Shown: positions 2,022 through 33,719 of the stretch, one piece after another | Layout: every line of letters begins with the position of its first letter | How positions within the stretch are numbered: position 1 is the first letter of the stretch | Origin: Acidimicrobiia bacterium | Lineage (GTDB): Bacteria > Actinomycetota > Acidimicrobiia > Acidimicrobiales > Aldehydirespiratoraceae | Direction: 5' to 3' | DNA length: 34,349 bases | Assembly (NCBI GenBank): GCA_030432715.1 | Contig: JAUIML010000008.1 | Location: 1 to 34,349, forward strand | The notes under the pieces: generated by a model | The model's input: only the letters and a program-made list of their open reading frames with translations | What the model was told of the DNA's origin: nothing | Databases searched by the model: none | Program-made: the position numbers and the translations under genes

Positions 2022-2048
2022 GGCGAAGCCCTCTTGTCAGGCTTCGCC
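2022..2048. terminator. Hairpin between convergent TPP-enzyme gene and livF
   Basis: Perfect 9-bp stem GGCGAAGCC / GGCTTCGCC with 9-nt loop; includes the livF stop codon. Confidence 0.55.
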
Positions 2049-2768
2049 GAGGTAGCTGGCCCGCAGGTCGGGGTTGGCCAGGAGGGCGTCGGCGGTGTCG
2101 TCGAGCACGACCCGGCCGGTCTGGAGCACCCAGCCCCGATCGGCGATGGAGAGCGCCATGTTGGCGTTCTGTTCCACCATGAAGATGGCGACGCCCGCTT
2201 GGTGGATCTGCTGGATCAGCTCGAAGTTCGTCTGCACCAACGCGGGCGCGAGGCCCATCGAGGGTTCGTCCATGAGCAGCACACGCGGTCGCGCCATCAG
2301 GGCACGACCCATCGCCACCATCTGCTGCTCACCGCCCGAGAGTGTGCCCGACTTCTGGCCGAGCCGTTCCTTGACCCGGGGGAACATGTCGTAGATCCGC
2401 TCGAGATCGGCCTCGATGCCGTCGCGATCGTTGCGGAGGTAGGCGCCCAGCTCGAGGTTCTCCTTGACCGTCAGCCGCTTGAAGAGCCGTCGGTTCTCGG
2501 GGACCATCGTGACTCCCCGCTCGACGCGGTACGACGTGGGCTTGTCGTTGACCACTTCGCCGTCGAGCACGACCTCGCCCGTCGTCGGAGTGACCATGCC
2601 GAGCAGGGTCTTGAGGGTCGTCGACTTGCCCGACGCGTTGCCGCCGAGAAGGCAGACGAGCTCGCCCGGATAGATGGCGAGATCGACGTCCTTGAGGATG
2701 TGCACCGCGCCGTAGTGGGTGTTGATCCCCCGGAATTCGAGGAGCGGTGTCGCACCGTTGTCCGTCAC
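2037..2768 (-). CDS. livF: Branched-chain amino acid ABC transporter ATP-binding protein LivF
   Basis: Walker A 'GGNASGKST', signature 'LSGGEQQMVAMGRALMARPRVLLMDEPSMGLAP'; start (GTG) overlaps livG stop. Confidence 0.92.
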   Translation of the reverse strand: MTDNGATPLLEFRGINTHYGAVHILKDVDLAIYPGELVCLLGGNASGKSTTLKTLLGMVTPTTGEVVLDGEVVNDKPTSYRVERGVTMVPENRRLFKRLTVKENLELGAYLRNDRDGIEADLERIYDMFPRVKERLGQKSGTLSGGEQQMVAMGRALMARPRVLLMDEPSMGLAPALVQTNFELIQQIHQAGVAIFMVEQNANMALSIADRGWVLQTGRVVLDDTADALLANPDLRASYLGEA

Positions 2769-3559
2769 GAGGCCCCCTCCACCGGTCGACCGAGATAGGC
2801 CTCGATCACTTCGGGGTCGGTCGAGACCTCCTCGAAGGAGCCCTGCGCGATTGTCTCGCCGTGGTCGAGCACGACCACGCGGTCGGAGACGTCGCGCACA
2901 ACGTTCATGTCGTGTTCGATCATGACGATCGTGAACCCCCACTCGCTGCGGAGCTTGCCGATGAGCCCGGTGAGTTCCTCGGACTCCTTCGGGTTCATGC
3001 CGGCCACGGGCTCGTCGAGGAGGATGATGGTCGGCTTCGTGGCCATCGCCCGAGCGATCTCGAGCCGGCGCCGGTTCGCGTAGGAGAGCACCGAAGCCGG
3101 CTGATGGAGTCGGTATCCGATGAGACGCGTTCCGAAGAAGCCGAGCACCTTCTCGGCGTGCGCACGGATCTCCTCTTCTTCACGACGGAAGCCCGGCGTG
3201 TTGAAGAGGGCACCGAAGACGCCCTGCTTGGTGCGGCAGTGCTGGGCGACCATCACGTTCTCGAGGATCGTCATGTTGGCGAAGAGCCGGACGTTCTGAA
3301 ATGTCCGGGCGATGCCACGGGCGGTCACCTGGTTCGGGTCGAAGCCGAGCAGCGACTCGCCCCGGAACACGATGTCGCCGGCGGTGGGAGCCACCATGCC
3401 CGAGATCATGTTGAAGAACGTCGTCTTGCCGGCCCCGTTCGGCCCGATCACCGAGACGATCTCGCCCTCGTCGACGTGGAAGTCGAGGTTCTTCAGGGCG
3501 TCGAGCCCACCGAAGGTGACGCTCAGCGAGTCGATGGTGAGGAGTCGTTCGCCGCTCAT
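2765..3559 (-). CDS. livG: Branched-chain amino acid ABC transporter ATP-binding protein LivG
   Basis: Walker A 'GPNGAGKTT', LivG-type 'ARTFQNVRLFANMTILENVMVAQH', 'LLDEPVAGMNPKE'. Confidence 0.93.
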   Translation of the reverse strand: MSGERLLTIDSLSVTFGGLDALKNLDFHVDEGEIVSVIGPNGAGKTTFFNMISGMVAPTAGDIVFRGESLLGFDPNQVTARGIARTFQNVRLFANMTILENVMVAQHCRTKQGVFGALFNTPGFRREEEEIRAHAEKVLGFFGTRLIGYRLHQPASVLSYANRRRLEIARAMATKPTIILLDEPVAGMNPKESEELTGLIGKLRSEWGFTIVMIEHDMNVVRDVSDRVVVLDHGETIAQGSFEEVSTDPEVIEAYLGRPVEGAS

Positions 3560-5376
3560 GCCGTCGCCCCTCCGGTCGTGTTGCCCTCTTCGTCGGCATC
3601 GACCTGCCCTCGGAGCCAGGCGTCCTGGAGGAACTCCTCCTGGTGCAGTTCACGGCTGCGGCGCACGTTGGGGATCAGTCCCTCGGGCCGCTTGAGCATC
3701 ATCCACACGAGCAGGGCGCCGTAGATCAGCAGCTTGAACTCGGAGAACTCGGCCAGAAGGCCGGGCTGATTGGGCCCGCCGAGCACGCCGATCAGCACCA
3801 CCGCACCCGCGATCACCCCGGCGATGCGGCCCATGCCGCCGACGATCACGACCACGAGGATCACGATCGACACCAGGATCTTGAAGCTCGACTCGAACAC
3901 GCTGCCCACCTTCGCCGCGAAGATCGCACCGGAGAACGAGGCCAGGATGGCGCCCACCACGAACGCCATCAGCTTGACGTTGACGGTGTTGATGCCCATC
4001 GCCTCGGCGACCGATTCGTCCTCCCGGACGGCCATCCAGGCCCGGCCCAACCGGGAGCGTTCGAGCCGCCAGCTCACGTAGATGGCGACGGCACAGAAGA
4101 AGGCCACCAGGTAGAAGACCGCCTGGGGATCGATGCCACGCACTTCCGCGACACCGAAGATCCCGGCCCCCGGGATGCCGGTGATGCCCTGGGCCCCGCC
4201 GGTCAGGCCGCTGGCCCAGTCGGACCGAACCGTGAGACGGATGATCTCACCGAAGCCGAGCGTCACGATGGCCAGATAGTCGCCCCGCATCCGGATCACC
4301 GGCGCACCGATGAACAGACCGGCCAGCGTCGCCATGCCGATCACGACGACCAGGGCGACGAGCCACGGCAACTCGGGCGAGAGTCCCGGCGACTGTGGTG
4401 AGGTCAGGATCGCGGTGGTGTAGCCGCCGACGGCGAAGAAGGCCACGTAGCCGAGGTCGAGGATGCCGGCCAGACCGACGACGATGTTCAGCCCCAGCGC
4501 GAGCAACAGGAACAGCCCGACGTTGGCCAACAGCTCGTTGGTGAGCTTGCCGAGGAACATCGGCAACACGACGACGGCCACACCGGCGAGCACCAGCAGC
4601 GCGGCATTGGCCCTCGTGCGCTCGACCGTCGGCATGGCGTCGTAACGCTGGCGCACGGCCTTCGCCCGGCTGCGTCCGAAGACCACGTACCCCGCGGCGA
4701 CAACGGCGACGGCGATCGCACCCTTGGGTGTGAGTCCGCCCCGGGCCTCGAACAGCCACTCGAACAGCCACTCGAGGCGGAAGCCCTCGGAGATGTCGTC
4801 GAGGGCCGACTCGAGCGCCGACACCAGGAAGACGGCGAGGAGCGCGGTGAGCACGGCCCGCGTCGCCGTGCGAGGCAGTAGGTGGAGCAGGCCGCCGAGG
4901 AGCCCGAGTCCGGTGGAGATGCCCAGCCAGACGAGCATGCCGTAGCCGACCGTCTCGTTGAACGTGAGCAACCCGAGCAGGTTGTCGCCCCAGTTGACGA
5001 GGGGGTCCGAGAGGTCACGGGTGTCGAGACCCCAGATCAGCAGTGCCAGCCCGGCGCCGCCGACGAGGCCGACGATCGCGCCGGCGACCAGTTCGTGGGC
5101 GCCGCGGGCATGGCTGGCCATCCCCTCCAGTACCTTCTCGGCGCTGACGGTGTAGCCCAGCAGCGCGGGGAGCCACAGCAGCGACAGGTAGCCCATGCTG
5201 ATGTAGGGCTCGACCACGATGCGGCTGTCGAGCTTGACCGGCATGCCGATGAGGGAGACGAAGACCAGCACGAGGGCGAGGAGCCCTCCGTAGCGCAACA
5301 GCTTGCGCCAGTTCTGGTCGAGGCCGCCGCGGGCCGGGATCACCTCGTGGGTTCCGGACTCGAGATGGGCGGTCAT
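3556..5376 (-). CDS. livM: Branched-chain amino acid ABC transporter permease LivM with long N-terminal membrane extension
   Basis: C-terminal ~340 aa LivM-type 'LGLNIVVGLAGILDLGYVAFFAVGGYTTAIL ... GMGRIAGVIAGA'; extra hydrophobic N-terminal ~255 aa; ATGA overlaps with neighbours. Confidence 0.9.
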   Translation of the reverse strand: MTAHLESGTHEVIPARGGLDQNWRKLLRYGGLLALVLVFVSLIGMPVKLDSRIVVEPYISMGYLSLLWLPALLGYTVSAEKVLEGMASHARGAHELVAGAIVGLVGGAGLALLIWGLDTRDLSDPLVNWGDNLLGLLTFNETVGYGMLVWLGISTGLGLLGGLLHLLPRTATRAVLTALLAVFLVSALESALDDISEGFRLEWLFEWLFEARGGLTPKGAIAVAVVAAGYVVFGRSRAKAVRQRYDAMPTVERTRANAALLVLAGVAVVVLPMFLGKLTNELLANVGLFLLLALGLNIVVGLAGILDLGYVAFFAVGGYTTAILTSPQSPGLSPELPWLVALVVVIGMATLAGLFIGAPVIRMRGDYLAIVTLGFGEIIRLTVRSDWASGLTGGAQGITGIPGAGIFGVAEVRGIDPQAVFYLVAFFCAVAIYVSWRLERSRLGRAWMAVREDESVAEAMGINTVNVKLMAFVVGAILASFSGAIFAAKVGSVFESSFKILVSIVILVVVIVGGMGRIAGVIAGAVVLIGVLGGPNQPGLLAEFSEFKLLIYGALLVWMMLKRPEGLIPNVRRSRELHQEEFLQDAWLRGQVDADEEGNTTGGATA

Positions 5377-6479
5377 GCGCGATCCTCCGACGAGAGCCGC
5401 TCACCGAAGAGACCGGTGGGCTTGACGAGCAGGACGAAGATCAGCACGAGGAACGCCACCGCGTCCTTCAACTGCGTGTGGCCCGTGACGCCGAGAGGCT
5501 CGAGCACCATCTGCGGGGCCAACGATTCGGAACTGCCGAGCGTGAGCCCGCCCGCCATTGCCCCACCCAGGTTGCCGATACCGCCGACCACGGCCGCACT
5601 GAATGCCTTGATCCCCGGCAGGAAGCCCGTGAACTCGGTAACGGAACCGAAGAGAATGCCCCACAGGATTCCGGCCACACCGGCCATGGCGCCGCCGACC
5701 GCGAACGTCGTCACGATGGTGCGGTCGACGTCGATGCCCATCAGCGAGGCGATCTCCTTGTCCTCGGCGACCGCCCGCATGGCCTTGCCGGTCTTCGTCC
5801 GCTCGACCAGGTACCAGAGTCCGGCCATCGAGACGGCGGCGACCACGAGCACGACGATCTTCTTGCCTTCGATGCCCAGCCACGGGATGTCGTCACGGAG
5901 CCAGTCGGGAAGCTGGGGGTAGCTCTTGGCGCCCGGGCCGAGCAGCAGGGCCGAGGTGTACTGGATGAAGAACGAGACGCCGATGGAGGTGATCAGCGGT
6001 ATCAGCCGGGGAGAACCGCGGAGGGGGCGGTAGGCCACCCGCTCCATCAACACCGCGGTCATCGTCGAGCAGAGCACGGAGACGATGATGGCGATCAGGA
6101 TGGCGAGGACGAAGTTGCTCTCCCAGAGCCCGCCGTCGGCGAGCTTGTTGGAGGTGATCATCCCCGTCATGGCCCCGACCATGAACACCTCGCCGTGTGC
6201 GAAGTTGATGAAGCCGAGCACGCCGTAGACCATCGAGTAGCCCAGGGCGATCAGCCCGTACATGGCACCCTGCGACAGACCCGAGACCACGAGGTCCTTG
6301 ATCGACTCCCACGACAGACGGGAGGCGTCGTCGTTGACCGCACGGGCGAAGAAGTTGTCGGGGTCGATCTGCTGACCGATGAAGGCCAGCAGCCCGACGG
6401 TCACGAGCGCGGTCAGGGAAAACCGAAGGAATGTGAGGAACCAGTCGACACGCGTCCGTGGCGCGTGTCTGACTCGCAT
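5373..6479 (-). CDS. livH: Branched-chain amino acid ABC transporter permease LivH
   Basis: 'GLSQGAMYGLIALGYSMVYGVLGFINFAHGEVFMVGA ... GGIGNLGGAMAGG'; start chosen at internal ATG (MRVRHAPRT), uncertain. Confidence 0.9.
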   Translation of the reverse strand: MRVRHAPRTRVDWFLTFLRFSLTALVTVGLLAFIGQQIDPDNFFARAVNDDASRLSWESIKDLVVSGLSQGAMYGLIALGYSMVYGVLGFINFAHGEVFMVGAMTGMITSNKLADGGLWESNFVLAILIAIIVSVLCSTMTAVLMERVAYRPLRGSPRLIPLITSIGVSFFIQYTSALLLGPGAKSYPQLPDWLRDDIPWLGIEGKKIVVLVVAAVSMAGLWYLVERTKTGKAMRAVAEDKEIASLMGIDVDRTIVTTFAVGGAMAGVAGILWGILFGSVTEFTGFLPGIKAFSAAVVGGIGNLGGAMAGGLTLGSSESLAPQMVLEPLGVTGHTQLKDAVAFLVLIFVLLVKPTGLFGERLSSEDRA

Positions 6480-6565
6480 CGCAGTGGTCAACGATCCCCC
6501 CTGGTCTCCAGAAAGGCCAGAGGCTAACCCATTCCCACCGGTGATGGCACAGGTGGAAAACCGCA

Positions 6566-6599
6566 AAGGGCCCCGCCTCCTCGCGGAGGCGGGGCCCTT
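6566..6599 (-). terminator. Strong hairpin between substrate-binding-protein gene and livH
   Basis: AAGGGCCCCGCCTCC-TCGC-GGAGGCGGGGCCCTT, perfect 15-bp stem with tetraloop. Confidence 0.8.
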
Positions 6600-6613
6600 C
6601 TCGGATCAGATGA

Positions 6614-7915
6614 CTACGCCGGGGCGTACTCGAAGACCACGTTGGCCTTGGAGGCCTCGATGTCGGTCGAGTCGAGATGCTCGACGATGGTGATCTTCTG
6701 TGAACCGCAGTCGCCGAAGGCGTCGCAGTTGATGGTGCCGATGAGGCCGGAGTAGCCCGAGATGCCGTTCAGGTACTCGCGGATGCCGGCCTTGTCGATG
6801 ACGAGGTTGCCGTCGCCGTCGACCTCGCTGGCCGCGTCGATCGCGTCGAGCAGCATCGCGGTGGCGTCGTAGCTGTGACCCCAGAACGCGGCGGAGGGCG
6901 GCTCGCCGACCTTCTCCTCGTAGGCCGCGAGCACCTCGGCAGCGGACTTGCCGGTGGACTCGTTGACGTTCTCACCGAAGCGGGTGTCGGGGCCCGAGAA
7001 GTACATGCCCTCGGACTGCGGCAGCTCCAGGAAGCCGTCGACCAGGAGGCCGTCGGCGGCGAGCAGCTGCGTCTCCTCGAGGCCGCTCACGCCCGACGCC
7101 TGATCGGCGATGAAGTCACCGGCCGGCTGGAAGATCGGGAAGAACAGGGCCTGGGGGCTCGCCGCGGCGACCTCGGTGAGGACGGGCACCATGTCGGTGT
7201 CTTCCTTGTTCACACCGGTGAAACCGACCATCTCGCCACCGAGCTCCTCGTAGGCATCCGAGAACGCCTGAGCGAGACCCTGGGTGTAGGGGTCGCCGTC
7301 GTGGATGGCGGCCGCGGTGGTGAGACCCAGGTCGTTGTACACGAAGTCGGCCATGGCCGCGCCCTGGAAGAGGTCGTTGTGCGCCGTGCGGTAGTAGCCG
7401 GGGGCGTAGCTGATGGCGGCGTTGCCCTGGAGATCCGACGTGAGGTCGGGCGAGGTGTTGGATCCGGAGATCATCACCAGGCCGTTCTCACCGATCAACG
7501 GTGCTGCGGCCGCGGCCGCGCCCGAGCACGAGGTGCCGATGACACCGGCGACCTGCTCGTCGGCGACGATCTGCTGCGCGGCCGCCTGGCCACCCTCGGC
7601 CGAGCAGAGGTCGTCGAGACCCTCGCCCGAGGTGACGTCGAAGCCCTTGATCTGGCCGTAGTCGGCCACGGCGAGCTCGATCGCCGCCTGGTTCGGAATG
7701 CCGAGGAACGACACGTCGCCGGTGATGGCGTTGAGTGAACGGATCTGCACTTCGGTGCCGGCCTCGACCACGATCGTGCCGAGTTCGGTGTCTCCGCCGC
7801 CGTCGCCGCCGCCGTCGCCTGCGTCGCCGTCGTCGTCATCGCCGCATGCGGCGGCGACGAGCGAGAACGAGAGCAGCACGGCAAGCAGCATGAGGAGCTT
7901 GCGTGAAAGCTTCAT
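6614..7915 (-). CDS. Branched-chain amino acid ABC transporter substrate-binding lipoprotein
   Basis: Lipoprotein signal 'LLAVLLSFSLVAAACGDDDDGDAG', periplasmic-binding fold sequence 'VAGVIGTSCSGAAAAAAPLIGENGLVMISGSNTSPDLT'; adjacent to livHMGF. Confidence 0.9.
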   Translation of the reverse strand: MKLSRKLLMLLAVLLSFSLVAAACGDDDDGDAGDGGGDGGGDTELGTIVVEAGTEVQIRSLNAITGDVSFLGIPNQAAIELAVADYGQIKGFDVTSGEGLDDLCSAEGGQAAAQQIVADEQVAGVIGTSCSGAAAAAAPLIGENGLVMISGSNTSPDLTSDLQGNAAISYAPGYYRTAHNDLFQGAAMADFVYNDLGLTTAAAIHDGDPYTQGLAQAFSDAYEELGGEMVGFTGVNKEDTDMVPVLTEVAAASPQALFFPIFQPAGDFIADQASGVSGLEETQLLAADGLLVDGFLELPQSEGMYFSGPDTRFGENVNESTGKSAAEVLAAYEEKVGEPPSAAFWGHSYDATAMLLDAIDAASEVDGDGNLVIDKAGIREYLNGISGYSGLIGTINCDAFGDCGSQKITIVEHLDSTDIEASKANVVFEYAPA

Positions 7916-8065
7916 TGGGTGATTCCCCTCCATTGGGATCGTGCGCGGAAGAGCGGCTCCACGCAGCCGGATTACTTCGGGGAAGTGTAGGTCGGGTGGC
8001 GCCGGAAAGGGGCCGACCCGTCCTCTGACAGTCACGTTCCGTGGCCATTCGGCCACACGTGCCTC

Positions 8066-8743
8066 TCAGGCCGTGCGGGCGAGGATCTCCTCGACCGGGC
8101 CGACCAGGCCCGTGTAGAACGCGCCGAACTCGGCGTAGACGGCCGACGCCGTGTCGTAGCGCATCGTGTAGACGGTGTCCTTCAGATCGTCGAGCTTCAC
8201 CCCGAACAGGGTGACGCCCCACTCCCAGTCGTCGAGACCGGTCGACGCCGTGATGAGCTGGACGATGCGTCCCGCGAACTTCCGACCCGACGTGCCGTGC
8301 TCCATCATGAGCGCCTTGCGGTCGTCGTAGGGCAGCGCGTACCAGTTCTGGTCGACGTTGCGCCGCTTGGTCATCGGATAGAAACACCAGGCGTGCTTCC
8401 CCTCGGGCGGTAGATCGGGATGGAGACGCATGTTGGCCATCTCCTCCGGCAGACCCTGGGCGTACTCGGAGAGCTCGGTGATCGACACGAAGCTGTCGAC
8501 CACCATGAGTCCGGCGGCGACCAGCCCGGTCTGCAGGTCGCGCAGCTTCCACCCGTCGGCGTGCAGGGCCATGAAGCACAGCGATGCCTTGTGGCCGAGT
8601 ACGGCCACGGTCACCACCTGCACCTCATCGGCCTCGGCGGTCTTCACCGCGGCGATGACGGCGGCGTCGTCGGTGTCGGGGGTGCGCTCGCAGAAGAGGT
8701 GGACGACGGCCACGCCCTGCGAAGTGGTCACGGGATCGAGCAT
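8066..8743 (-). CDS. hemQ: Chlorite dismutase-family coproheme decarboxylase (HemQ/ChdC)
   Basis: 'YPMTKRRNVDQNWYALPYDDRKALMMEHGTSGRKF ... STGLDDWEWGVTLF' characteristic of HemQ. Confidence 0.9.
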   Translation of the reverse strand: MLDPVTTSQGVAVVHLFCERTPDTDDAAVIAAVKTAEADEVQVVTVAVLGHKASLCFMALHADGWKLRDLQTGLVAAGLMVVDSFVSITELSEYAQGLPEEMANMRLHPDLPPEGKHAWCFYPMTKRRNVDQNWYALPYDDRKALMMEHGTSGRKFAGRIVQLITASTGLDDWEWGVTLFGVKLDDLKDTVYTMRYDTASAVYAEFGAFYTGLVGPVEEILARTA

Positions 8744-8787: not shown

Positions 8788-9708
8788 ATGTCCAGAAGCA
8801 CCCACCAGGCGTTGGCCAACGAGCGCAACGCCACGGTCGAGATCTACATCAACGGCGAGTTCTTCCCGAGGGACGAGGCCAGGATCTCGGTCTTCGACAG
8901 TGGCTTCCTCGTGGGCGACGGCATCTGGGAGGGCATCCGGCTGCACCACGGAGTGTTCGCGCACCTCGACCGCCACCTCGATCGGCTCTTCGCCAGCGCC
9001 GCCGCCATCGATCTCGACATCGGCCTCGATCGGGCCGGGATCACGGCCGCCCTGCGCGAGACCGTCGACCGCAACGGGATGGACGACATGGTCCACATCC
9101 GACTCATGGTCACGCGGGGCGACAAGAAGACGCCGTCGCAGCATCCGTCCAACAATGTCGGTGGCCCCAACATCGTGATCATCGCCGAGCACAAGGCCGC
9201 CGATCCCGAGGTGCGCGATCGTGGCATCTCGCTCTTCACCGCCACGGTGCGCCGTCCCCCGCCCGACACGCTCGACCAGAAGCTCAACTGCCATTCGAAG
9301 CTCCACGAGGTCATCGCCCTGATCCAGGCGACCAAGGCCGGTGCCGACGAGGCCCTGATGCTGGACCCGACCGGTGCCGTGGCGACCTGCAACGCCACGA
9401 ATTTTTTCATCGTGCGCAAGGGCGGCCTGTGGACCGCAACCGGTCAGTACAACCTCAACGGCATCACCTCGGCCCTCGTGTGCGAGGTGGCCGAGGCCGC
9501 GGGCATCCCCGTCCACAAGGCGCCGTTCTCGTTGACCGACGTCTACGCGGCCGATGAGGCGTTCGTCACCGGCACGTTCGGCGGATTGACGCCGGTCCAC
9601 ACCATCGACGGTCGCACGATCGGTGACGGGTCGCAGGGTCCGATGACCATCCGCTTGCGCGAACTCTACGAAGCCGAGATCGAGCGGTCGATCTCGGACG
9701 GCTCGTGA
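8788..9708 (+). CDS. Class IV PLP-dependent aminotransferase (branched-chain aminotransferase-like)
   Basis: 'ISVFDSGFLVGDGIWEGIRLHHG', 'LDQKLNCHSKLHEVIALIQATKAGADEALMLDPTGAVATCNATNFFIV' class IV aminotransferase motifs. Confidence 0.9.
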   Translation: MSRSTHQALANERNATVEIYINGEFFPRDEARISVFDSGFLVGDGIWEGIRLHHGVFAHLDRHLDRLFASAAAIDLDIGLDRAGITAALRETVDRNGMDDMVHIRLMVTRGDKKTPSQHPSNNVGGPNIVIIAEHKAADPEVRDRGISLFTATVRRPPPDTLDQKLNCHSKLHEVIALIQATKAGADEALMLDPTGAVATCNATNFFIVRKGGLWTATGQYNLNGITSALVCEVAEAAGIPVHKAPFSLTDVYAADEAFVTGTFGGLTPVHTIDGRTIGDGSQGPMTIRLRELYEAEIERSISDGS

Positions 9709-9736
9709 ACTCGCCGAGCACACTCAGGGTCTGCGC

Positions 9737-10459
9737 ATGCAGGACGTGAAGCGCATTCAGTGCTGGTCGGGGCCGCGCAACATCTCGACCGCGCTCATGT
9801 ACTCCTGGCGCCAACGGGCCGACACCACCGTGGTGGACGAGCCGCTCTACGCCCACTATCTGCACAACGACGACCGGGGGCATCCCGGTGCCGACGAAAC
9901 GATGGCGAGCCAGTCGACCGACGCCGACGCCGTGATCCGCGACGTCATCCTCGGGCCCTGTCCCACACCGGTGCTCTACCTGAAGCAGATGGCCCACCAC
10001 CTGCGTGGTGTCGACCGCAGTCATCTGGCCCACACCGAGAACCTCATCCTGACCCGGCACCCTCGCGACATGCTGGCGTCGCTCTCGGTCCAGCTGCCCG
10101 AGTGCGACCTGCGCGACACCGGACTCGTCGAGTGCGTGGAGCTGCTCGACGCAGTGCTCGCCGAAGGCGGACGGCCCGTCGTGATCGACTCCCAGGCGCT
10201 GCTGCGCGACCTGGCCGGCGTGCTCGCCCAGGTATGCGAACGGGTCGGGCTCGACTTCGACGAGGCCATGCTCTCGTGGCCCGCGGGCCCGAAGCCTGAG
10301 GACGGGGTGTGGGCGCAGTACTGGTACGACAACGTCCATTCCTCGACGGGCTTCGGACCGCCGACCTCGACCAGCCGCCCGCTCCCCGCCCGCCAGCACG
10401 CCGCCCTCGAACAGGCCCTCCCCCTCTACGAACGCCTCGCCGCCCACGCCGTCCACTAG
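9737..10459 (+). CDS. Sulfotransferase-fold P-loop protein
   Basis: N-terminal PAPS-loop-like 'CWSGPRNISTALMYSW', 'LILTRHPRDMLAS', 'VIDSQALLRDLAGVLAQVCERVGLDFDEAMLSWPAGPKPEDGVWAQYWYDNVHSSTGF'. Confidence 0.75.
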   Translation: MQDVKRIQCWSGPRNISTALMYSWRQRADTTVVDEPLYAHYLHNDDRGHPGADETMASQSTDADAVIRDVILGPCPTPVLYLKQMAHHLRGVDRSHLAHTENLILTRHPRDMLASLSVQLPECDLRDTGLVECVELLDAVLAEGGRPVVIDSQALLRDLAGVLAQVCERVGLDFDEAMLSWPAGPKPEDGVWAQYWYDNVHSSTGFGPPTSTSRPLPARQHAALEQALPLYERLAAHAVH

Positions 10460-10481: not shown

Positions 10482-11203
<722 letters not shown>

Positions 11204-11204
<1 letters not shown>

Positions 11205-12076
11205 CAGCGCTCTCCCTTGCGATCGCGAGTCATCCGCTCCTCGAGCTTGGTGAGCAGGAACGACAGGAACAGCACCAGGGTCACGTAGATGAAGACGAGC
11301 ACCACATAGCTCTCACGGAACTTGAAGCTGCCCGACGAGTACTGACGGGCCAGCCGGGTCACATCCGCGACCGCGAGCACCGACAGCAGCGAGGAGTCCT
11401 TGAGGATGGCGATGAAGTCGTTGCCGAGCGGCGGGATGATCGACCGCATCGCCTGCGGGAGGATCACCGAACGCATGGTCTGCAAACGGCTCAGCCCAAC
11501 GGATCGTCCGGCCTCCATCTGCCCCTTCGGAATCCCCTGCACACCGCCGCGGATGACCTCGGCGATGTAGGCGCCGTAGATGATCGACAGGGCGATCACA
11601 CCGCGCCAGAACTCGTCGACGGTCTGGCGGGAGACGCCGAGCCAGTCGGTCACATCGGGGATGATGACGAGGGCGAGGAAGAAGATCAGCGGCAGGATCG
11701 GCACGCCGCGCACGAACTCGATGTACGTCCGGCTGAGGTTCCGACCGAGCGTGGCCGCAAGCCGCACCGGGGCCGACGCCGTGTGATCGGCTTCGGCGAT
11801 CCGGCCCAGGCCGAGGACCACCCCGAGCGACAACGAGATCGCGAAGGCCCAGAGAGTGATCCGGATGGTCATCCAGATGCCTTCGGAGATGCGTTCCCAC
11901 GCAATCTCGTAGGCCTCGTTGAAGAGGGCGAGGTAGCCGAGATACCCGACGATGCCGGCGAGGATCAGGATCCAGTAGGGGAAGGTCTCCCAGCGCGAAT
12001 CGGCGTCGAGCGGCTTCTCGGGATGCGCGATCCCCTCGAAGCGATGCCCTTCCGGGGCGCCGGCAGCTCGGGCCAC
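11204..12076 (-). CDS. Polar amino acid ABC transporter permease
   Basis: HisMQ/GlnP-type '[19 protein letters not shown] ... [71 protein letters not shown]'. Confidence 0.93.
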
Positions 12077-12097
12077 TGTGTCTCTCCTCAGAACGCA

Positions 12098-12129
12098 GAC
12101 GGGGCGCCGGCTCGCGCCGACGCCCCGTC
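12098..12129 (-). terminator. Hairpin between SBP gene and its permease gene
   Basis: GACGGGGCGCCGGC-TCGC-GCCGACGCCCCGTC, long GC-rich stem with near-complete pairing. Confidence 0.65.
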
Positions 12130-12169
12130 ATCAGATCACATCGAGTCGGAATTCACCGGCTCGGCCGGA

Positions 12170-13183
12170 TCACTCGCTGTCTTCCTCGAAGCCCTCGGGC
12201 AGCACGGCGTCCTCATACTCCGGGAAGGAGAGGTCGTCGTAGCTGATGCTGAAGGCGTCGTCGAAGTAGCGACCCGAGATCTCCTCGAGCGACCCGTCGG
12301 CCTTCATGCTGTTGAGGGCGTCGTTGAACGGGCTCACGAGATCGGAGCCGGGCACGAAGATGAAGCCGAGCGCGTCGGACGACAACGAGTCGCCGATGAG
12401 CTCGAGCTCGTCGGCGTTCTCACCCTGGTAGCCCTGACCGGCGGTCTCATCGATGATCACCGCATCGACGTCGCCGGCGATGAGGGCCTGAATGGTGAAG
12501 CCGAACTCGTCGTAGGGCTTGACGCGATCCTCGCCGACGAGGTCGACGGCGGTGTCGTAGTTGGTGGTGCCGATCTGCGAACCGAGCGTGAAATCGCCCG
12601 CCGCGAGGCTGGCGGAGTCGGTGAAGCGGTCCTCGCCGAGACGAACGAGCATGCGCTGCTCGATGTTGATGTAGCCCTCGGAGAAGTCGACGATCTGGGC
12701 CCGCTCGTCGGTGATCGTGATGCCGTCGGCGGCCATGTCGAACTGGCCGTCGGCGCCGGCCTGGATCATCGGCTCCCAGGGGTATTCCTGGTAGTCGGGG
12801 ACACAGTTGAGGCGGTGACACAGCTCGTCGATGACCTCGTAGTCCCAGCCGGTCGGCTCGCCGGTTTCGGGGTCGATGTAGTTGAACGGCAGGTAGGCGT
12901 TCTCGACGGCGACGGTGACGGTACGACCCTCGAGGTCGGGCAGACCGAAGTCGACCATGTCGCCTTCGTCCATCTCGCCCTCGTCGTCCATCTCGCCCTC
13001 ATCGTCCATGTCGCCTTCGTCCATGTCGCCGTCGGCGTCCGTGCCGTCGTCGTCCATGTCACCGTCGTCGGCTGCAGCCGTGGTGGTGGTGTCGCCGGCG
13101 TCGGTGTCGTCGTCGCCGCACGCTGCGGCCAGCAGGCCGAACGTGAGCAGGAGCGCAAGGAGCGCCAGTAGTCGCTTGGACAT
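12170..13183 (-). CDS. Polar amino acid ABC transporter substrate-binding lipoprotein with acidic repeat linker
   Basis: Lipobox 'LLAAACGDDD', SBP_bac_3-like 'GRTVTVAVENAYLPFNYIDPETGEPTGWDYEVIDELCHRLNC ... MIQAGADGQFDMAADGITITDERAQIVDFSEGY'. Confidence 0.9.
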   Translation of the reverse strand: MSKRLLALLALLLTFGLLAAACGDDDTDAGDTTTTAAADDGDMDDDGTDADGDMDEGDMDDEGEMDDEGEMDEGDMVDFGLPDLEGRTVTVAVENAYLPFNYIDPETGEPTGWDYEVIDELCHRLNCVPDYQEYPWEPMIQAGADGQFDMAADGITITDERAQIVDFSEGYINIEQRMLVRLGEDRFTDSASLAAGDFTLGSQIGTTNYDTAVDLVGEDRVKPYDEFGFTIQALIAGDVDAVIIDETAGQGYQGENADELELIGDSLSSDALGFIFVPGSDLVSPFNDALNSMKADGSLEEISGRYFDDAFSISYDDLSFPEYEDAVLPEGFEEDSE

Positions 13184-18483: not shown

Positions 18484-19869
18484 GTGCCGCCTCCCGTCGT
18501 GCTCGTGTCGAACCGGGGTCCGCTGTCGTTTCGCGACGATGGCGGCGAGCTGGTCGCCACCCGCGGTGGAGGTGGCCTCGTCTCGGGACTGGCCCCCCTG
18601 GTCGCCGACACCGATGCCCTGTGGATCGCCGCTGCCCTGAGCGAGGCCGACCGCACCGCCGCGGCCCGGGGTGTCATCGAGACCGACGGGCTCCGCGCCC
18701 GCACCCTCGCGATCGATCCCGAGACCCTCGCCCAGGCCTACGACGGTGTGTGCAACTCGATGCTCTGGTTCCTGCACCACGGACTCCACGACCTGAGCCG
18801 TCGTCCGGTCATCGATGCGGGGTTTCGCACCGCGTGGGCCGCCTACCGCCGCTACAACCTCGCGTTCGCCGATGTCGTCGTCGAGGAAGCACCCGAGGGC
18901 GCGGTGGTGCTCGTCCAGGACTACCACCTCGCCCTGCTCGGTCCCCTGCTACGGGAACGGCGTCCCGATCTCCGATCGGTGCACTTCTCCCACACTCCGT
19001 TCGCGCCACCGCACCTCATGCGGGTCCTCCCCCACGACCTGGCGGTCGAACTGCTCGAGGGCATGGCGGGCCACGACGCCTGTGGCTTCCACTCCGAACG
19101 CTGGGCACGCGACTTCCGGGCCGGATGTGCCGAGATCGCCGACATCGCCGACGCCACGACCTTCGTCTCACCCCTCGCCCCGGATGCGGCCGACATCCGT
19201 GGGGTCGCCTCGTCGTCGCGATGCGGCGACGAGGTGGACCGGATCGAAGCCGAGCTGGGCTCGCGGCGGCTCATCGTGCGGGTCGATCGCATCGAGCTCT
19301 CGAAAAACCTCCTTCGCGGCTTCCGGGCCTACGACACCATGCTGCGAAACCGTCCCGACCTCAGGGGAACGGTCGTGTTCCGAGCCCTCGGCTACCCGAG
19401 CCGGGAGGGCCTACCCGAGTACCTGGCGTACCGGTCCGAGATCGAGGCGCTGGCCGACGTCGTCAACCACCGATGGGCCACGCCGGACTGGCAGCCGATC
19501 GAGCTCGACCTCGTCGACGACTTCCCGAAGTCCGTCGCCCACCTTCGCCGCTACGACGTGTTGCTGGTGAACCCCATCCGCGACGGTCTGAACCTCGTCG
19601 CCGAAGAGGGGCCACTCGTGAACGAACGCGACGGCACCGTCGTCCTGAGCCGCGAGGCGGGCGTACACGATGTGCTGGCCGGCGCGGTGCGCTCGGTGAA
19701 CCCCTACGACATCGCCGATCAGGCCGACGCCCTCGCCGAGGCGCTCGACATGGATGCGTCGACGAGGACACGCACGGCGGCGGAGCTGCGACGGCGAGCC
19801 GAAGCGAGAGGCCCGGCCGACTGGCTGGCCGACCAACTCGCCGCGGTCGGGGTCGTCGACGGCGACTGA
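18484..19869 (+). CDS. otsA: GT20 family glycosyltransferase, trehalose-6-phosphate synthase-like
   Basis: 'VLVSNRGPLSF', 'VLVQDYHLALLGPLLRERRPDLRSVHFSHTPF', 'LVNPIRDGLNLVAEEGPLVNERDGTVVLSREAG'; next to otsB. Confidence 0.85.
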   Translation: MPPPVVLVSNRGPLSFRDDGGELVATRGGGGLVSGLAPLVADTDALWIAAALSEADRTAAARGVIETDGLRARTLAIDPETLAQAYDGVCNSMLWFLHHGLHDLSRRPVIDAGFRTAWAAYRRYNLAFADVVVEEAPEGAVVLVQDYHLALLGPLLRERRPDLRSVHFSHTPFAPPHLMRVLPHDLAVELLEGMAGHDACGFHSERWARDFRAGCAEIADIADATTFVSPLAPDAADIRGVASSSRCGDEVDRIEAELGSRRLIVRVDRIELSKNLLRGFRAYDTMLRNRPDLRGTVVFRALGYPSREGLPEYLAYRSEIEALADVVNHRWATPDWQPIELDLVDDFPKSVAHLRRYDVLLVNPIRDGLNLVAEEGPLVNERDGTVVLSREAGVHDVLAGAVRSVNPYDIADQADALAEALDMDASTRTRTAAELRRRAEARGPADWLADQLAAVGVVDGD

Positions 19870-19878
19870 CGACCGGCC

Positions 19879-20649
19879 TCAGGCCGCGGACTCGGCGACG
19901 GCCAGGATCTCCCGCAACAGTGCCTCGGCCCCGGCCGGACCGTCGACGACGAGATCGGCCCGCTGCCGCAGGATCGGCGGCACTTCGGGAGAGTCGACCG
20001 CCACCCGCAGGGTCGCCACACCGTGCCGGGCGAGCTGATCGAGACCATCGAACGCGGGCAGATCACCCAGGTCGTCACCGAAGTACGCGACCGGGTCGAG
20101 GTCCTCGGCCAGCTCGACGAGGGCGGTCCCCTTGTCGCGGGCGATCGGAGGGTGGAGCTCGAACGATCGCTTGGCCGGCCGCTGCTCCATGCCCGTGCGT
20201 TCGGCCTGGTCGATCACCCACGCCCGCATCGGGGCCGCCAGGGCGTCGTCGCGGCGATAGTGCACGGTGAGCGAAAGACCTTTCGGTTCGACGACATCGG
20301 GACCGAATCTCGCCTCGGCGTCGGCGACCATCTCGGCCACCGTGTCGCGATAGACCTCCGCCGCGTGCAGGGTGTGGTGAACGCCCCGCCGCCGCCACTC
20401 CAGCCCGTAGAGCCCGACCACGTCCACCGCAGCCGGCACCATGGCATCGAGATAGGCGACCGGGCGTCCGGAGATCACCGCCACGCGACCGAGCCGAGCG
20501 CTCAGCGCCACCAGCAACGCGTCCACGCCGTCACGCATCACCGCGGCGTCGGGCTCGGGGGCGATGTCGGCGAGGACACCGTCGAAGTCGAGGAACAGCC
20601 CGGCGCGCGAGGGGGCCCGCCCGAAGACGGCGAGCGAAGAGGACGTCAC
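19879..20649 (-). CDS. otsB: Trehalose-phosphatase (HAD family)
   Basis: 'GLFLDFDGVLADIAPEPDAA', 'RVAVISGRPVAYLDAMV', 'LYGLEWRR', 'YFGDDLGDLPAFDGL'. Confidence 0.88.
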   Translation of the reverse strand: MTSSSLAVFGRAPSRAGLFLDFDGVLADIAPEPDAAVMRDGVDALLVALSARLGRVAVISGRPVAYLDAMVPAAVDVVGLYGLEWRRRGVHHTLHAAEVYRDTVAEMVADAEARFGPDVVEPKGLSLTVHYRRDDALAAPMRAWVIDQAERTGMEQRPAKRSFELHPPIARDKGTALVELAEDLDPVAYFGDDLGDLPAFDGLDQLARHGVATLRVAVDSPEVPPILRQRADLVVDGPAGAEALLREILAVAESAA

Positions 20650-25939: not shown

Positions 25940-27403
25940 TCAGCCGCCGCGACTGCGCAGCAGGTCCTCGAACCCCCGCACGACGGTGTGCTCGGTCTCC
26001 GGAGCGTTCTCGGTACCGGCCACGAACAGGCCGGTCGCCATGCCCATCGCCTTCGCCTCGTCGAGATGCTCCGGCACGTTCGAGAGGTAGAAGCAGTCGA
26101 ACAGGTCGACCGACATGGTGCGCCGGGTGGCCTCGAACAGGGCGGGCTCGGGAAGGACCGACCCCACGTCGCCACTGACCATCCAGGAGACGACCGCATC
26201 GTCGAGTGCCGCCATCCGCCGAAGGCGGTCGCCCCAGGCCCTCGGTTGGTTGCCGATCGCCGCGACCGGCAGTCGGCTGGTGGCCATGCGGTCGAGGAAC
26301 GGATGCAGCCCCGGCACGAGCCGGAACGACGACAGGTACTTCGTCTCGATCTTCTCGGCGACAGGGCCGAGACCGACCTCGGCCCAGAACTCCTCGACCG
26401 AGATCCGACCCAGGATCAGGCGTCGATGCAGCTCACGGACCCGATCGGGGTCGGCGTCGGGTTGCTCGGCGACGATCAGCGGCAGCAGGAGGCCCTCGAG
26501 CGGGTCGGTCGGACGGACCACGACCCCATGCACGTCGATGATGAGCAACCGCAACATCCGGCGCCGGGGCCGGTTGGCTTCCTCGGCGCGCGACGCCGCG
26601 TTCTGCTGGCGGCGGCGCACGTCCCGCCGACGTCTTCCCTTGGGGGTGCGGATCTTCGCCAACGCGAATCCCCCGAGGCGGGCCAACAGGATCCCCAGGA
26701 ACAGCAGGAAGGCGAGGAGCGCGACGATCGCCCACACCCGGGGAAGGATGTCGTCGACCGAGGACCGGGCGTCGAGCTGGATCAACTCGGTCGACCCGAA
26801 GGTGGTCTCCCACTCGATCGCCTCGCCGACCTTCTCGCCCGTGTCGCTCGACTCGCTCTCCGGGAGCCGGACTCGGACGAGCACCCGGTCGTCGCCGTTG
26901 CGTTGCTCGTCGATCTCCGGGATTCGACTGTCGATGCCGACCGTGGCGGGCAGGAACTCGTCGGTGAACACCTCGAGGGACGGGTTCGGGTCGATCTCGC
27001 CGCTCAAGCGATAGTCGGTCGTGGCGGGGGCGAGGCCGATCCGGTCGAAGGAGTGGGTTTTTTCGAGGACCACGTCGATGAAGACGCCCTCGGGGGCGAT
27101 CTCGGCCAGCACCGCCGGCAGGTCGTCGACCCCGGTGAAGGGCTTGGCAACGGAGATCGTCATCGCCCCCGACGCGTCGAGATCCGGGCCGTCGATGGTC
27201 CAGCCGGCGGCCTCGAGGTCGTCGAAGCGCAGCCCGTCGGGCGCGTCGGGGAGGGCGGCGACCGCCGCGGCGTCGGCGACGACGATCACCGTGACCGTCC
27301 CGGACCCGTCGTCGTCGACCGCGATGTCGACCGTGGTGTCGACACGGCACGCGCTCGCGAAGAGGATCAGGATCCCCAGGAGCAGTAGACGTACCCGGCG
27401 CAT
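25940..27403 (-). CDS. LppM-domain lipoprotein - TM - HAD-like domain fusion protein (487 aa)
   Basis: 'MRRVRLLLLGILILFASACRVDTTVDIAVDDDGSGTVTVIVVAD' (lipoprotein signal + LppM-like), TM 'VWAIVALLAFLLFLGILLARLGGFALAKI', basic stretch, then HAD-like 'MLRLLIIDVHGVVVRP...'; the ORF-track extension to 28528 is antisense-type sequence over clpC. Confidence 0.8.
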   Translation of the reverse strand: MRRVRLLLLGILILFASACRVDTTVDIAVDDDGSGTVTVIVVADAAAVAALPDAPDGLRFDDLEAAGWTIDGPDLDASGAMTISVAKPFTGVDDLPAVLAEIAPEGVFIDVVLEKTHSFDRIGLAPATTDYRLSGEIDPNPSLEVFTDEFLPATVGIDSRIPEIDEQRNGDDRVLVRVRLPESESSDTGEKVGEAIEWETTFGSTELIQLDARSSVDDILPRVWAIVALLAFLLFLGILLARLGGFALAKIRTPKGRRRRDVRRRQQNAASRAEEANRPRRRMLRLLIIDVHGVVVRPTDPLEGLLLPLIVAEQPDADPDRVRELHRRLILGRISVEEFWAEVGLGPVAEKIETKYLSSFRLVPGLHPFLDRMATSRLPVAAIGNQPRAWGDRLRRMAALDDAVVSWMVSGDVGSVLPEPALFEATRRTMSVDLFDCFYLSNVPEHLDEAKAMGMATGLFVAGTENAPETEHTVVRGFEDLLRSRGG

Positions 27404-27474
27404 TCCGTCGAAACTAGACGCCACGGGGACGACGCGGTGGCCAGCACCGCCCGAGAGGGCGCAACCGGTCGATG

Positions 27475-30030
<2,556 letters not shown>

Positions 30031-30193
30031 CGGTATTTGCCTCCCAGGTCTGGGTCGTTCAGGAGAGTGTATCGGTGGGATCCGGCCGGAAACGGTCGAA
30101 TCACGCAACTCCTGTCGACATCATCGGCACTTCGAGGGCGACTGTGAACTCCTCGGCTGCGCCCATCGGTCCGTTTTCCCGTAGCGTGTCGGC

Positions 30194-31213
30194 GTGGCCA
30201 CGTCCCCACTCTCCATCCTCCCGAGCATGGAAGACGACCTGAAGCGGGTCGAAGAGGAGTTGCTCCGCGTCGTGGCATCCGAGGGGGACTTCCTCACCGA
30301 GATCGCCAGCCACCTGATCCTCGCCGGCGGAAAGCGGGTCCGGCCCGGGTTCGCGATCGCCGCGTCCTCCGTGCTGGATCCCACCGGGGCCGCCGCTTCC
30401 ATCGAGGTCATCCGGGGCGGTTGCGCGGTCGAACTCGTCCACATCGGGTCGCTCTACCACGACGACGTGATGGACGACGCCACCACACGGCGCAGCGTCA
30501 AGAGCGTCAATGCCGAGTGGGGCAACCTGCGCGCGATCCTGGCCGGCGACTATCTGCTCGGCCGTTCGTCCGAGCTCGCCGCCGACCTCGGCACCGAGGT
30601 CGCCGGCATCCTCGCCACCACCATCACCGAGCTGTGCGAGGGGCAGATCCTCGAGCTCGAGTCGGCCTATCAGCCGGATCGCACCATCGACACCTACGAG
30701 CGCTCGATCGCCGGGAAGACCGCATCGCTGCTGGCCACTGCGTGTCGCATCGGCGCGATCGTCGGCGAACTGCCCCGACCCGTCGTCGAGGCCATGACCG
30801 AGTTCGGCGAGGCCTACGGCATGGCCTTCCAGGTCGTCGACGACATCCTCGACATCACCGCCACCGACGAGCAGCTCGGCAAGCCGGCCGGCGACGACCT
30901 CGTCGAGGGCATCTACACCCTGCCGGTGATCCACGCCCTGGCCGATCCCACCGTCGCGGCCGAGTTGCGGACCCTCCTCACGCCCACGATCACGACCGCG
31001 GAGCGAGACCGAGCCCGCGAACTCGTGCGCGCCAGCGACGGTGTGCGCATCGCCCTCGACGAGGCACAGGGGTGGGCCGACAAGGCCGCCGCAACGCTCA
31101 CCGACCTGCCCGACACCCCAGGGGCCCGCGCCCTGCGGGCCGCCGCCGATCACCTGATCGAGCGGGCCGCGGCGCCACTCGGTCGCAAGCGCTTCAGCCG
31201 CAAGGCCCGCTGA
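30194..31213 (+). CDS. Polyprenyl diphosphate synthase (trans-isoprenyl diphosphate synthase)
   Basis: 'GGKRVRPGFAIAASS', first Asp-rich motif 'LYHDDVMDDATTRR', second 'AFQVVDDILDITA'; GTG start. Confidence 0.93.
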   Translation: MATSPLSILPSMEDDLKRVEEELLRVVASEGDFLTEIASHLILAGGKRVRPGFAIAASSVLDPTGAAASIEVIRGGCAVELVHIGSLYHDDVMDDATTRRSVKSVNAEWGNLRAILAGDYLLGRSSELAADLGTEVAGILATTITELCEGQILELESAYQPDRTIDTYERSIAGKTASLLATACRIGAIVGELPRPVVEAMTEFGEAYGMAFQVVDDILDITATDEQLGKPAGDDLVEGIYTLPVIHALADPTVAAELRTLLTPTITTAERDRARELVRASDGVRIALDEAQGWADKAAATLTDLPDTPGARALRAAADHLIERAAAPLGRKRFSRKAR

Positions 31214-31261
31214 GCCGGTCGACTCATTGCGACCCGTCACGCGACCGTGTGTCATGGGTTG

Positions 31262-32572
31262 ATGGCCGCCGAGACGACCACCGGAGCGGCGCGCCGACGC
31301 CTGGGCCACGAACCCGCGCTCGACGGCGTCCGCGGCATCGCCGTACTGCTCGTGGTGCTGTGGCACTACCCGACGGACATCCTCGAGCGTCAGTTCTCGT
31401 GGTTGCGCTCCGGTCACCTCGGCGTCGACCTGTTCTTCGTGCTCAGCGGCTTTCTGATCACCGCGCTGATGCTCAACGAACACGCTGCCGACGGTTCGAT
31501 CAGTTTCGCGGGCTTCTACCGACGTCGGGTCTTCCGCCTCCTCCCCGCCCTCTTCGTCTTCCTGGCTGCGCACATCGTGTTCGCGAACCTCACCGACATC
31601 CCGAACGGTGGGCTCTTCAGCCCGGGCACCGACGGATCCGACCAGGTCGCGTCGATTCTCGGCGCCGCGTTCTTCGTCCTCAACTGGTTGGACGACATCG
31701 GCTCTGGCTACGACATCTCGCTCGGCCTGGGGCACCTCTGGTCGTTGTCGGTGGAGGAGCAGTACTACATCGTGTGGCCGGCGATCACCGTCGCGATGCT
31801 GACACCACGATCGGCGATCAACCGCGCGGCATCGGCCGGCGCCGGCGGAGCCGTCGTGATGGCCGGTCACAACTATGTGTGGAACGAAAGCGCCGACACG
31901 AGCCGATGGCTTGTCACGTTGGGCGTCTGGGCGGTCGTGACCGGGGTGCTGGAACTCATCCGTCGGAGTAGCCGACGATCGGTCTGGATCGTCTCGGTGA
32001 TCGCGACCACGATCGGCGCGACGCTCCTCTACCGCAACGGCAGCTACGAAGGCGGCCCCGAGGTGTTCAGGCTCTATGCCGGCACGTTCAGCCGGGCCGA
32101 TTCGCTCATGGTCGGGTCGGGCTTCGCCTTCCTCTGGGTCGAGGGGTGGGTGCCGCGACGATGCCCGACCTGGCTCTCCTGCGTCGCGTGGGCGTTCTTC
32201 GTCTGGGCGGTCACGGCGAGGAGCCTCAGCGAACCCTTCTTCTTCGAATTCGGCTGGACCCTCGTCGCGTTGTCCGGAGCCCTGATCCTCTGGGGCGCGC
32301 TCGGCGCCGAGGGCACCGTCTACGGGCGTGTGCTCTCGATGGCGTGGCTGCGCGGTGTGGGAAAGGTCGCCTACGGCCTCTACCTCTGGCACGCGCTGGT
32401 CTTCATCGCCGTACGGCACTGGTGGGGCGATGGATCGACGCTCTGGAAGACGGTCCTCGCCCTGGGACTCACCGCCCTCGTCACGGCGGCGTCGTGGTTC
32501 CTCGTCGAGAAGCCGATGCTCGCGTTCAAGACGCCGGCAAGGAGGCGCGACCGGTCCCCGTCGCGCGTCTGA
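31262..32572 (+). CDS. Acyltransferase 3 family membrane protein (OafA/YrhL-like)
   Basis: 'HEPALDGVRGIAVLLVVLWHYP', 'LGVDLFFVLSGFLITALML', 'FYRRRVFRLLPAL', 'LGHLWSLSVEEQYYIVWP'. Confidence 0.93.
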   Translation: MAAETTTGAARRRLGHEPALDGVRGIAVLLVVLWHYPTDILERQFSWLRSGHLGVDLFFVLSGFLITALMLNEHAADGSISFAGFYRRRVFRLLPALFVFLAAHIVFANLTDIPNGGLFSPGTDGSDQVASILGAAFFVLNWLDDIGSGYDISLGLGHLWSLSVEEQYYIVWPAITVAMLTPRSAINRAASAGAGGAVVMAGHNYVWNESADTSRWLVTLGVWAVVTGVLELIRRSSRRSVWIVSVIATTIGATLLYRNGSYEGGPEVFRLYAGTFSRADSLMVGSGFAFLWVEGWVPRRCPTWLSCVAWAFFVWAVTARSLSEPFFFEFGWTLVALSGALILWGALGAEGTVYGRVLSMAWLRGVGKVAYGLYLWHALVFIAVRHWWGDGSTLWKTVLALGLTALVTAASWFLVEKPMLAFKTPARRRDRSPSRV

Positions 32573-32615
32573 TCTCCGGTTTCGGAGCCCCTCGTCCATG
32601 CCCCAGGATGGAGGC

Positions 32616-33719
32616 ATGGCCGCCAACCCGTCCGTCCCCCGCACCATGCGGGCCGCCCTGCTGCTCGGCAACGGAGGCCCGGAGATGCTCGTCGTCCGCA
32701 ACGACGTGGCCGTGCCCGAACCGCAGGCCGGTGAGGCCCTGATCCGGATCGCCGCGTGCGGGGTGAACAACACCGACATCAACACGCGGGTCGGCTGGTA
32801 CTCACGGTCGGTCAGATCGGGCACGTCGGGCGACGGGTTCGCCGAGTCGCAGACCGACGACGCGACCTGGGGCAAGGGCGGCCTCGCGTTCCCGCGGATC
32901 CAGGGGGCCGACATCTGCGGCACCGTCGTCGCCGTCGGCGACGACGCCGATGCCGACCTGATCGGCCGGCGGGTGCTGGTCGACCCGTGGATCCGCGACG
33001 AGCACGACCCGGCCGACCGAACCCTGGCCGGCTATCTCGGCAGCGAACACGACGGAGGGTTCGCCGAGTACTGCGCCGTCCCCGTCCGCAACGTCCATCC
33101 GGTCGTGTCACGCCTGTCCGACGTCGAACTCGCGACCTTTGCGTGCTCCTGGTCGACCGCGGCGCACATGCTCCAACGCGTCGACCTGACGGCCGGACAG
33201 TCGATCGCCGTCCCCGGAGCCTCGGGTGGGGTGGGCAGCGCCCTCGTGCAGCTCGCCAAGGTTCGGGGTGCCCGAGTGGTGGCCGTCGCCGGCGCCGCGA
33301 AGCTCGACGAGGTTCGGGCGCTCGGACCCGACGAGGTCATCGCCCGAGAGACGCCGGATCTCGTCCGGGCCGTCGTCGAAGCCAACGGCGGCCCCCTCGA
33401 CGTCGTCGCCGACATCGTCGGTGGCCCCGGCTTCGTCGAGTGGCTCGATGCGCTGGTTCGTGGCGGCCGCTACGTGACCTCCGGCGCCATCGCCGGGCCG
33501 GTCGTGGAACTCGACCTGCGCACCCTGTACCTCAACGACCTCGAGCTCTACGGCGCCACCGTCTACGGGCCGCAGGTGTTCGCCGACCTCGTCGGCCACA
33601 TCGAGCGGGGCGAGGTCCGTCCCGTCGTCGCGGGCACCTATCCGCTCGAACGGATCGACGAGGCCCAGGCCGCGTTCGTCGAGAAACGCCACACCGGAAA
33701 CCTCGTGATCACGATCTAA
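32616..33719 (+). CDS. Medium-chain dehydrogenase/reductase (zinc-binding alcohol dehydrogenase/quinone oxidoreductase-like)
   Basis: '[24 protein letters not shown]', '[14 protein letters not shown]', nucleotide-binding '[30 protein letters not shown]'; alternative ATG at 32598. Confidence 0.9.

Follow-up and report, generated by a model that had tools for sequence, protein, structure and literature searches.

A sulfotransferase (ST) and a class IV aminotransferase-like protein (AT) that has lost the catalytic lysine of its fold are encoded side by side in the window, a stretch of 34,349 nucleotides from an Acidimicrobiia bacterium (contig JAUIML010000008.1). The two recur together across many bacterial phyla, and on balance they probably make up a two-component sulfation unit whose second subunit carries a re-purposed, lysine-independent PLP-fold site. 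The AT gene (8788..9708, plus strand) encodes a 306 aa lysine-less PLP fold-type IV protein of the type here called A, with an Aminotran_4 domain (PF01063, E=1.7e-40) that spans the whole domain and with 7z79 as its nearest PDB entry. The ST gene (9737..10459, plus strand) encodes a 240 aa protein that matches positions 2-225 of the 226 in Sulfotransfer_5 (PF19798, E=8e-49), an assignment shared by Pfam, the AF2 model with Foldseek and the motif residues. The ORF coordinates leave 28 bp between the genes (9709..9736, plus strand), a gap consistent with co-transcription, and in relatives the corresponding gaps measure 8-180 bp between homology matches. Up to this point the preliminary description of this DNA holds, as the coordinates, strand, 28-bp spacing, quoted residues and families of the two adjacent ORFs are all as it gave them. 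The NCBIfam models match AT only below their cut-offs (BCAT, DAAT and ADC-lyase models) and do not match ST at all. The source genome amounts to 3.68 Mb in 310 contigs, of which the window contig is C284, and is 83% complete.

AT was also described as a class IV aminotransferase, a label that its active-site residues contradict. Alignment with BCAT structures and with relatives places N167 (codon AAC, 9286..9288, plus strand) where the lysine that forms the Schiff base with PLP would stand (the K-site), and T200 (codon ACC, 9385..9387, plus strand) where BCATs have a glutamate in contact with N1, the pyridine nitrogen of PLP. The domain and the fold are thus those of fold type IV, whereas the Schiff-base lysine and the acidic residue at N1 are absent. 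The PLP-phosphate cup (R66, G225, T227, T261 and T263, the last four within GIT and TGT) and R105, which occupies the position of the carboxylate-recognition arginine of BCAT, are retained (8983..9576, plus strand) and are conserved in all the sets compared, namely types A and B, the plasmid-borne set A' and canonical enzymes. Lysine is found at the K-site in none of the 114 AT sequences of the ST-associated clade, which either adjoin an ST gene or come from ST-carrying genomes. These comprise 43 of type A, all with Asn at the K-site and Thr at the N1-Glu site, and 71 of the sister type B, all with Glu at the N1 site and His at a K-site placed by alignment alone. The K-site is Asn in 6/6 of the A' set, and the 18 canonical relatives used for comparison all have Lys and Glu. 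A single sequencing error as the source of N167 is excluded because the lysine-less state is invariant, Asn being present throughout type A. The window's genome has a canonical IlvE on another contig (C149, ...PPASKTTGNY...) with Lys and Glu in place, and such lysine-bearing paralogues sit elsewhere in the pair-carrying genomes; in one locus (L051) an unrelated, lysine-bearing DAAT-like gene is placed after the AT/ST pair. The ordinary transaminase reading of AT was rejected on these residues, and the label 'aminotransferase' is contradicted at residue level for the whole ST-partnered clade. Automatic annotation names such proteins class IV, branched-chain or D-amino-acid aminotransferases, and the ST-linked ones all lack the catalytic lysine.

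The altered site is highly conserved. Types A and B have in common a series of derived residues that canonical enzymes lack (S38, W47, H103, K113, K136, D163, N202, T204 and G265), with canonical counterparts that include His for S38, Phe for W47, Tyr for H103, Gly for K113, Asp for T204 and Ala for G265. Type A has more than 80 invariant columns over 25 sequences, among them N167, H169, S170, K171, H173 and E174. Across many phyla, what used to be the catalytic motif hardly varies in its altered form, which is LN[CS]HSKLHE in type A and has IH at the K-site in type B. Judged by this conservation, the site of the window AT appears re-purposed rather than decaying.

The maximum-likelihood tree groups the lysine-less sequences in a single clade (100/100) that excludes every canonical sequence and has two branches, B (100/99) and a second that unites A with A' (100/100). 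In the second branch the ST-linked type A proteins have a clade of their own (98/91) that includes neither 7z79 nor the plasmid A' proteins, and the A' set does not resolve as a single clade. The most economical reading would be a single loss of the lysine in the common ancestor of A and B, followed by divergence to the Asn/Thr and His/Glu states. The entry 7z79 is titled 'aminotransferase-like protein from Variovorax paradoxus' and is the closest solved structure to AT (337 bits). Its N174, the equivalent of N167 in the window protein, aligns with the Schiff-base lysine of the BCAT structures 5cm0 and 5mqz, and a further entry, 9j32, titled 'mutant N174K', differs from that chain by a single Asn to Lys change. 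Foldseek ranks 7z79 and 9j32 first for the AF2 model of AT (E 2e-37 to 7z79 and 6e-30 to a BCAT), a model that is weak precisely in the active-site loops. Like AT, the Variovorax protein has the fold-type IV architecture and Asn at the Schiff-base site, at about 53% identity, but it differs in having Ser at the N1-Glu position (Thr in AT) and Arg in place of K171. The nearest lysine-bearing solved relatives are the archaeal-type BCATs (5mqz, 5cm0, 5e25; NCBIfam PRK08320), which at about 38% identity share the fold and the phosphate cup but have Lys and Glu in place, and Tyr, Phe and His where the lysine-less clade has H103, W47 and S38. The open-access literature, which leaves out most subscription journals, yielded no paper that deals with the Variovorax structure or with fold-type IV proteins lacking the lysine, and no link of 7z79-type proteins to an ST was found in the literature searched.

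The A' proteins, to whose outlying set 7z79 belongs, constitute a second orphan branch of the lysine-less clade and are found on plasmids of Ruegeria, Agrobacterium, Pantoea, P. savastanoi and Dinoroseobacter (L116-L120). Unlike the window AT, none of the A' genes at these five loci has an ST gene beside it, nor was one found elsewhere on the same plasmids. Since the A' proteins share the loss of the lysine with no ST alongside, the lysine-less fold can do without an ST. Next to the A' genes lie genes for ABC transporters of polar amino acids, for a TRAP transporter or for phospholipid (phosphatidylserine) functions, and because of this company the lysine-less clade as a whole seems to deal with amino-acid-like ligands. 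The nearest plasmid-encoded ST lies outside the ST family, at 35% identity, and adjoins an APS kinase gene.

ST has a PAPS-type sulfotransferase fold, as judged from a confident AF2 model (pLDDT 93.8, pTM 0.91), and is predicted to be PAPS-dependent. Its best Foldseek matches (E 6e-6 to 1e-3) include PAP-bound tyrosylprotein sulfotransferases, the ST domain of an olefin synthase (4gox) and Stf0. By inspection, a 5'-PSB-like WSGPRNxST was assigned to residues 10-18, followed by K83, H87 and H88 and by a 3'-PB-like R107xP...S115. These motif residues, H87 included, vary little or not at all among homologues; W10, P13, R14, N15, S17, T18, K83, H88, R107, P109 and S115 are invariant in 30 diverse homologues. 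The fold and the PAPS-binding motifs are common to the known PAPS sulfotransferases (Sulfotransfer_5, the tyrosylprotein enzymes and 4gox), but the window ST represents a distinct family with only 11-18% identity to the best solved structures. APS kinase is the enzyme that forms PAPS, and its gene is carried by the window's own genome and by every one of the 13 Actinomycetota genomes that have the pair in the sample described below, against 101 of 199 overall (p=1e-4, genome relatedness ignored).

The distribution of the two genes supports one functional unit. A strong PF19798 homologue (E<1e-39) is present in 13 of 199 Actinomycetota genomes with an AT adjacent in every one, and a separate protein search for the lysine-less AT (E<=1e-50) recovered exactly the same 13 genomes and no others (p~1e-20, genome relatedness ignored). 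Among 199 Planctomycetota genomes the lysine-less AT occurs in 28 of the 29 with an ST, and an ST in 28 of the 28 with the AT (p~3e-33, again ignoring relatedness). A GTDB-wide scan found at least 579 relatives of ST, from which 80 loci were kept for neighbour analysis, and an AT is adjacent in 53 of them. The phyla with such pairs are Actinomycetota, Chloroflexota, Planctomycetota, Poribacteria, Verrucomicrobiota, Balneolota, Bacteroidota, Acidobacteriota, Pseudomonadota, Gemmatimonadota, Deinococcota and others. Adjacency by chance is excluded, since close relatives of the two genes are neighbours in every one of the 13 Actinomycetota genomes with an ST and at 53 of the 80 loci. Loci with an ST alone were considered as a counter-example to the pairing and rejected, as 21 of the 26 genomes searched carry a lysine-less AT elsewhere (19 of type B, two of type A), and the remaining ST-only genomes may be incomplete MAGs. 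The proposal that the two proteins act together, put forward in the preliminary description, is strongly supported by this co-occurrence and by one planctomycete fusion. Rare co-occurrence, named there beforehand as the finding that would speak against it, is the opposite of what the 13/13 Actinomycetota and 28/29 Planctomycetota ST genomes display.

The weaker PF19798 paralogues in the Actinomycetota sample, unlike the window ST family, have an adjacent lysine-less AT in 0/17 cases. Several of these paralogues (L016, L020, L021, L027, L029 and L031, family f20) have an APS kinase gene within about 3 kb, which suggests separate PAPS/sulfation operons.

The two AT types differ in gene order. 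As in the window, most type A genes precede ST, whereas most type B genes follow it, L049 being a type B exception. The fusion (L042), on a single MAG contig, is an uninterrupted 543-aa ST-AT protein of type B and is the only true one found; apparent in-frame fusions in three other Planctomycetota loci (L171, L172 and L174) were rejected, each having a stop codon between the genes. The ST tree has at least five changes of AT partner type on well-supported branches, so that A and B look interchangeable as partners, and therefore a property common to both would matter to ST and not the particular residue at the K-site. With Asn plus Thr in one type and His plus Glu in the other, on interchangeable partners, nature has also run an experiment on the capabilities of a PLP fold that lacks its lysine.

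These differences bear on the suggestion that the window pair is a simple split of a two-domain 'branched-chain aminotransferase-like' protein of plants. The plant proteins, which according to the preliminary description have the domain order ST-then-AT in one chain, would share that order with the L042 fusion and with the type B pairs, whereas the window has two genes in the order AT-then-ST and an AT of type A. A simple split is thus not what the window represents. The L042 fusion does demonstrate that the plant-type arrangement occurs naturally in this ST family with an AT of type B, and to that extent architecture lends the split-protein proposal partial support. The plant proteins presumably carry a KIHHNN-like motif, and if this is right they would be lysine-less and of type B. 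No plant match closer than other structures was found in the PDB and no plant counterpart in the literature searched; a scan of viral contigs returned one match only, a distant one. If the plant proteins are members of this clade, the question of what a conserved plant gene family does would be re-opened, and the label 'branched-chain aminotransferase' would be wrong if the present reading is true.

In the favoured reading ST would sulfonate a small substrate from PAPS. Its near-obligate AT-like partner would have abandoned Schiff-base transamination while keeping the phosphate cup and the carboxylate arginine and gaining new active-site residues. This partner would bind PLP, PMP or another phosphorylated amino- or keto-acid-like ligand non-covalently, and on the bound ligand it would either carry out a lysine-independent step coupled to sulfation or present the substrate to ST. 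If there is such a step, the favoured candidate, on the model of ColD and E1, would be of the PMP type, with a sulfated or hydroxylated keto acid undergoing elimination or amination; sulfate is a good leaving group. ColD and the E1 enzymes (AscC, DdhC) are PMP-dependent dehydrases of fold type I in which Lys is changed to His and a transaminase has been turned to elimination. They provide a precedent for the loss of the PLP lysine to His and for PMP-driven elimination, but differ from the AT-like proteins in their fold type, in their sugar substrates and in having no sulfotransferase partner. We infer a heteromeric AT/ST complex, and its ligand, reaction and substrate are proposed on the same footing. 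The loss of the N1 Glu in type A would weaken the electron-sink chemistry of PLP, and together with the apparent interchangeability of A and B this loss shifts the balance of the proposal from catalysis towards a role in binding or presenting. A bolder and distinctly more tentative version would have a widespread PAPS sulfotransferase working with a lysine-less PLP-fold enzyme in lysine-independent B6 chemistry in many bacterial phyla, and fused to it in land plants. A two-component enzyme of this kind is undescribed in the literature searched, most subscription journals lying outside it. Either way, an orphan ST family and an orphan pseudo-aminotransferase family are brought together into one testable biochemical question, and a clade of mis-annotated fold-type IV proteins is marked out together with its near-obligate partner and a natural fusion.

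The main rival explanation, which is plausible while falling short of probable, is that the AT-like protein is a pseudoenzyme subunit with no chemistry of its own, which regulates ST or presents its substrate and whose old site would bind either an amino acid or a B6 vitamer. Strict co-occurrence and the fusion agree with such a role as well, and type A has lost both the catalytic lysine and the N1 Glu while its ligand-binding residues stay; two AT types with different K-site residues that can stand in for one another would likewise be expected of a non-catalytic partner. The near-invariance of the former catalytic motif argues against it, as the motif is not relaxed, and suggests a demanding ligand or reaction.

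It is improbable that the Schiff base has merely moved and that AT is still a PLP aminotransferase acting through K113, K136 or K171. In favour of this, every A and B sequence has the lysines K113 and K136, which canonical enzymes lack, and type A never varies at K171. Type B, however, has Leu or Gln at position 171 and most A' proteins have Arg there, and K113 lies within an RGxK loop that we take to be the substrate-anion recognition loop of DAAT and BCAT structures. In addition, the depositors of the Variovorax relative introduced N174K, which implies an empty site in the wild-type protein. K165, two residues upstream of the K-site and the lysine of 'DSK' in type B, was tried as a shifted catalytic residue because the length of the loop from the lysine to the helix varies in BCATs, and was rejected as poorly conserved, being Arg in most of type A and Asn, Thr, Arg, His or Val in 9 of 71 type B sequences.

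A specific guess within the two-component sulfation reading concerns a sulfonated C3 amino acid. An algal metabolic model includes a PAPS:2-aminoacrylate sulfotransferase as a route from PAPS to cysteate (PMC7990286), and if ST were such an enzyme the AT-like protein would handle an aminoacrylate- or keto-like intermediate. The logic of an ST joined to a PLP fold fits, but the analogy is the whole of the argument and no genes of taurine, cysteate or DHPS metabolism lie among the ORFs flanking the pair, and this guess is very unlikely to be right. Least credible of all is the model of the preliminary description, an ordinary amino-donor aminotransferase and an ST in sequential steps of one pathway, which the class IV fold and the co-occurrence would suit but which the absence of the Schiff-base lysine from all 114 ST-linked ATs, with lysine-bearing canonical paralogues elsewhere in the genomes, speaks against.

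The surroundings of the pair point to no particular pathway. Among 99 flanking ORFs from loci outside the Acidimicrobiia, in which 109 Pfam families were matched, no recurrent third gene was found; the top family, GFO/IDH/MocA oxidoreductase, occurs in five. With no recurrent partner, inference of a pathway from the neighbours was rejected. In the window the pair is flanked downstream by an amino-acid-type ABC transporter (GlnQ, permease and SBP_bac_3, 10482-13183, minus strand), and a LivFGMHK-type ABC transporter is divergent from it (2037..8056, minus strand), the latter syntenic in several Acidimicrobiia and context only. The amino-acid transporter setting to which the preliminary description drew attention stands for some Acidimicrobiia, but as a general feature of the pair it does not, as no transporter recurs among the 99 flanking ORFs. 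Synteny of the Liv-type genes is limited to several Acidimicrobiia, and Liv ATPases also lie near some Poribacteria STs.

Some further features of the window may be recorded. The block around the pair, including both ABC transporters, a TPP enzyme and FdhD, is syntenic in L035. The divergent neighbour of the pair (8066-8743, minus strand) belongs to the chlorite-dismutase family (PF06778, E=1.9e-42) and is HemQ/coproheme-decarboxylase-like by family. Two very long putative ORFs of 862 and 940 aa on the minus strand (25940-32923) have no Pfam match and are accompanied by long antisense ORFs. A trehalose-6-phosphate synthase gene (plus strand) and a trehalose phosphatase gene (minus strand) converge at 18484-20649, and a glycerate kinase gene adjoins them.
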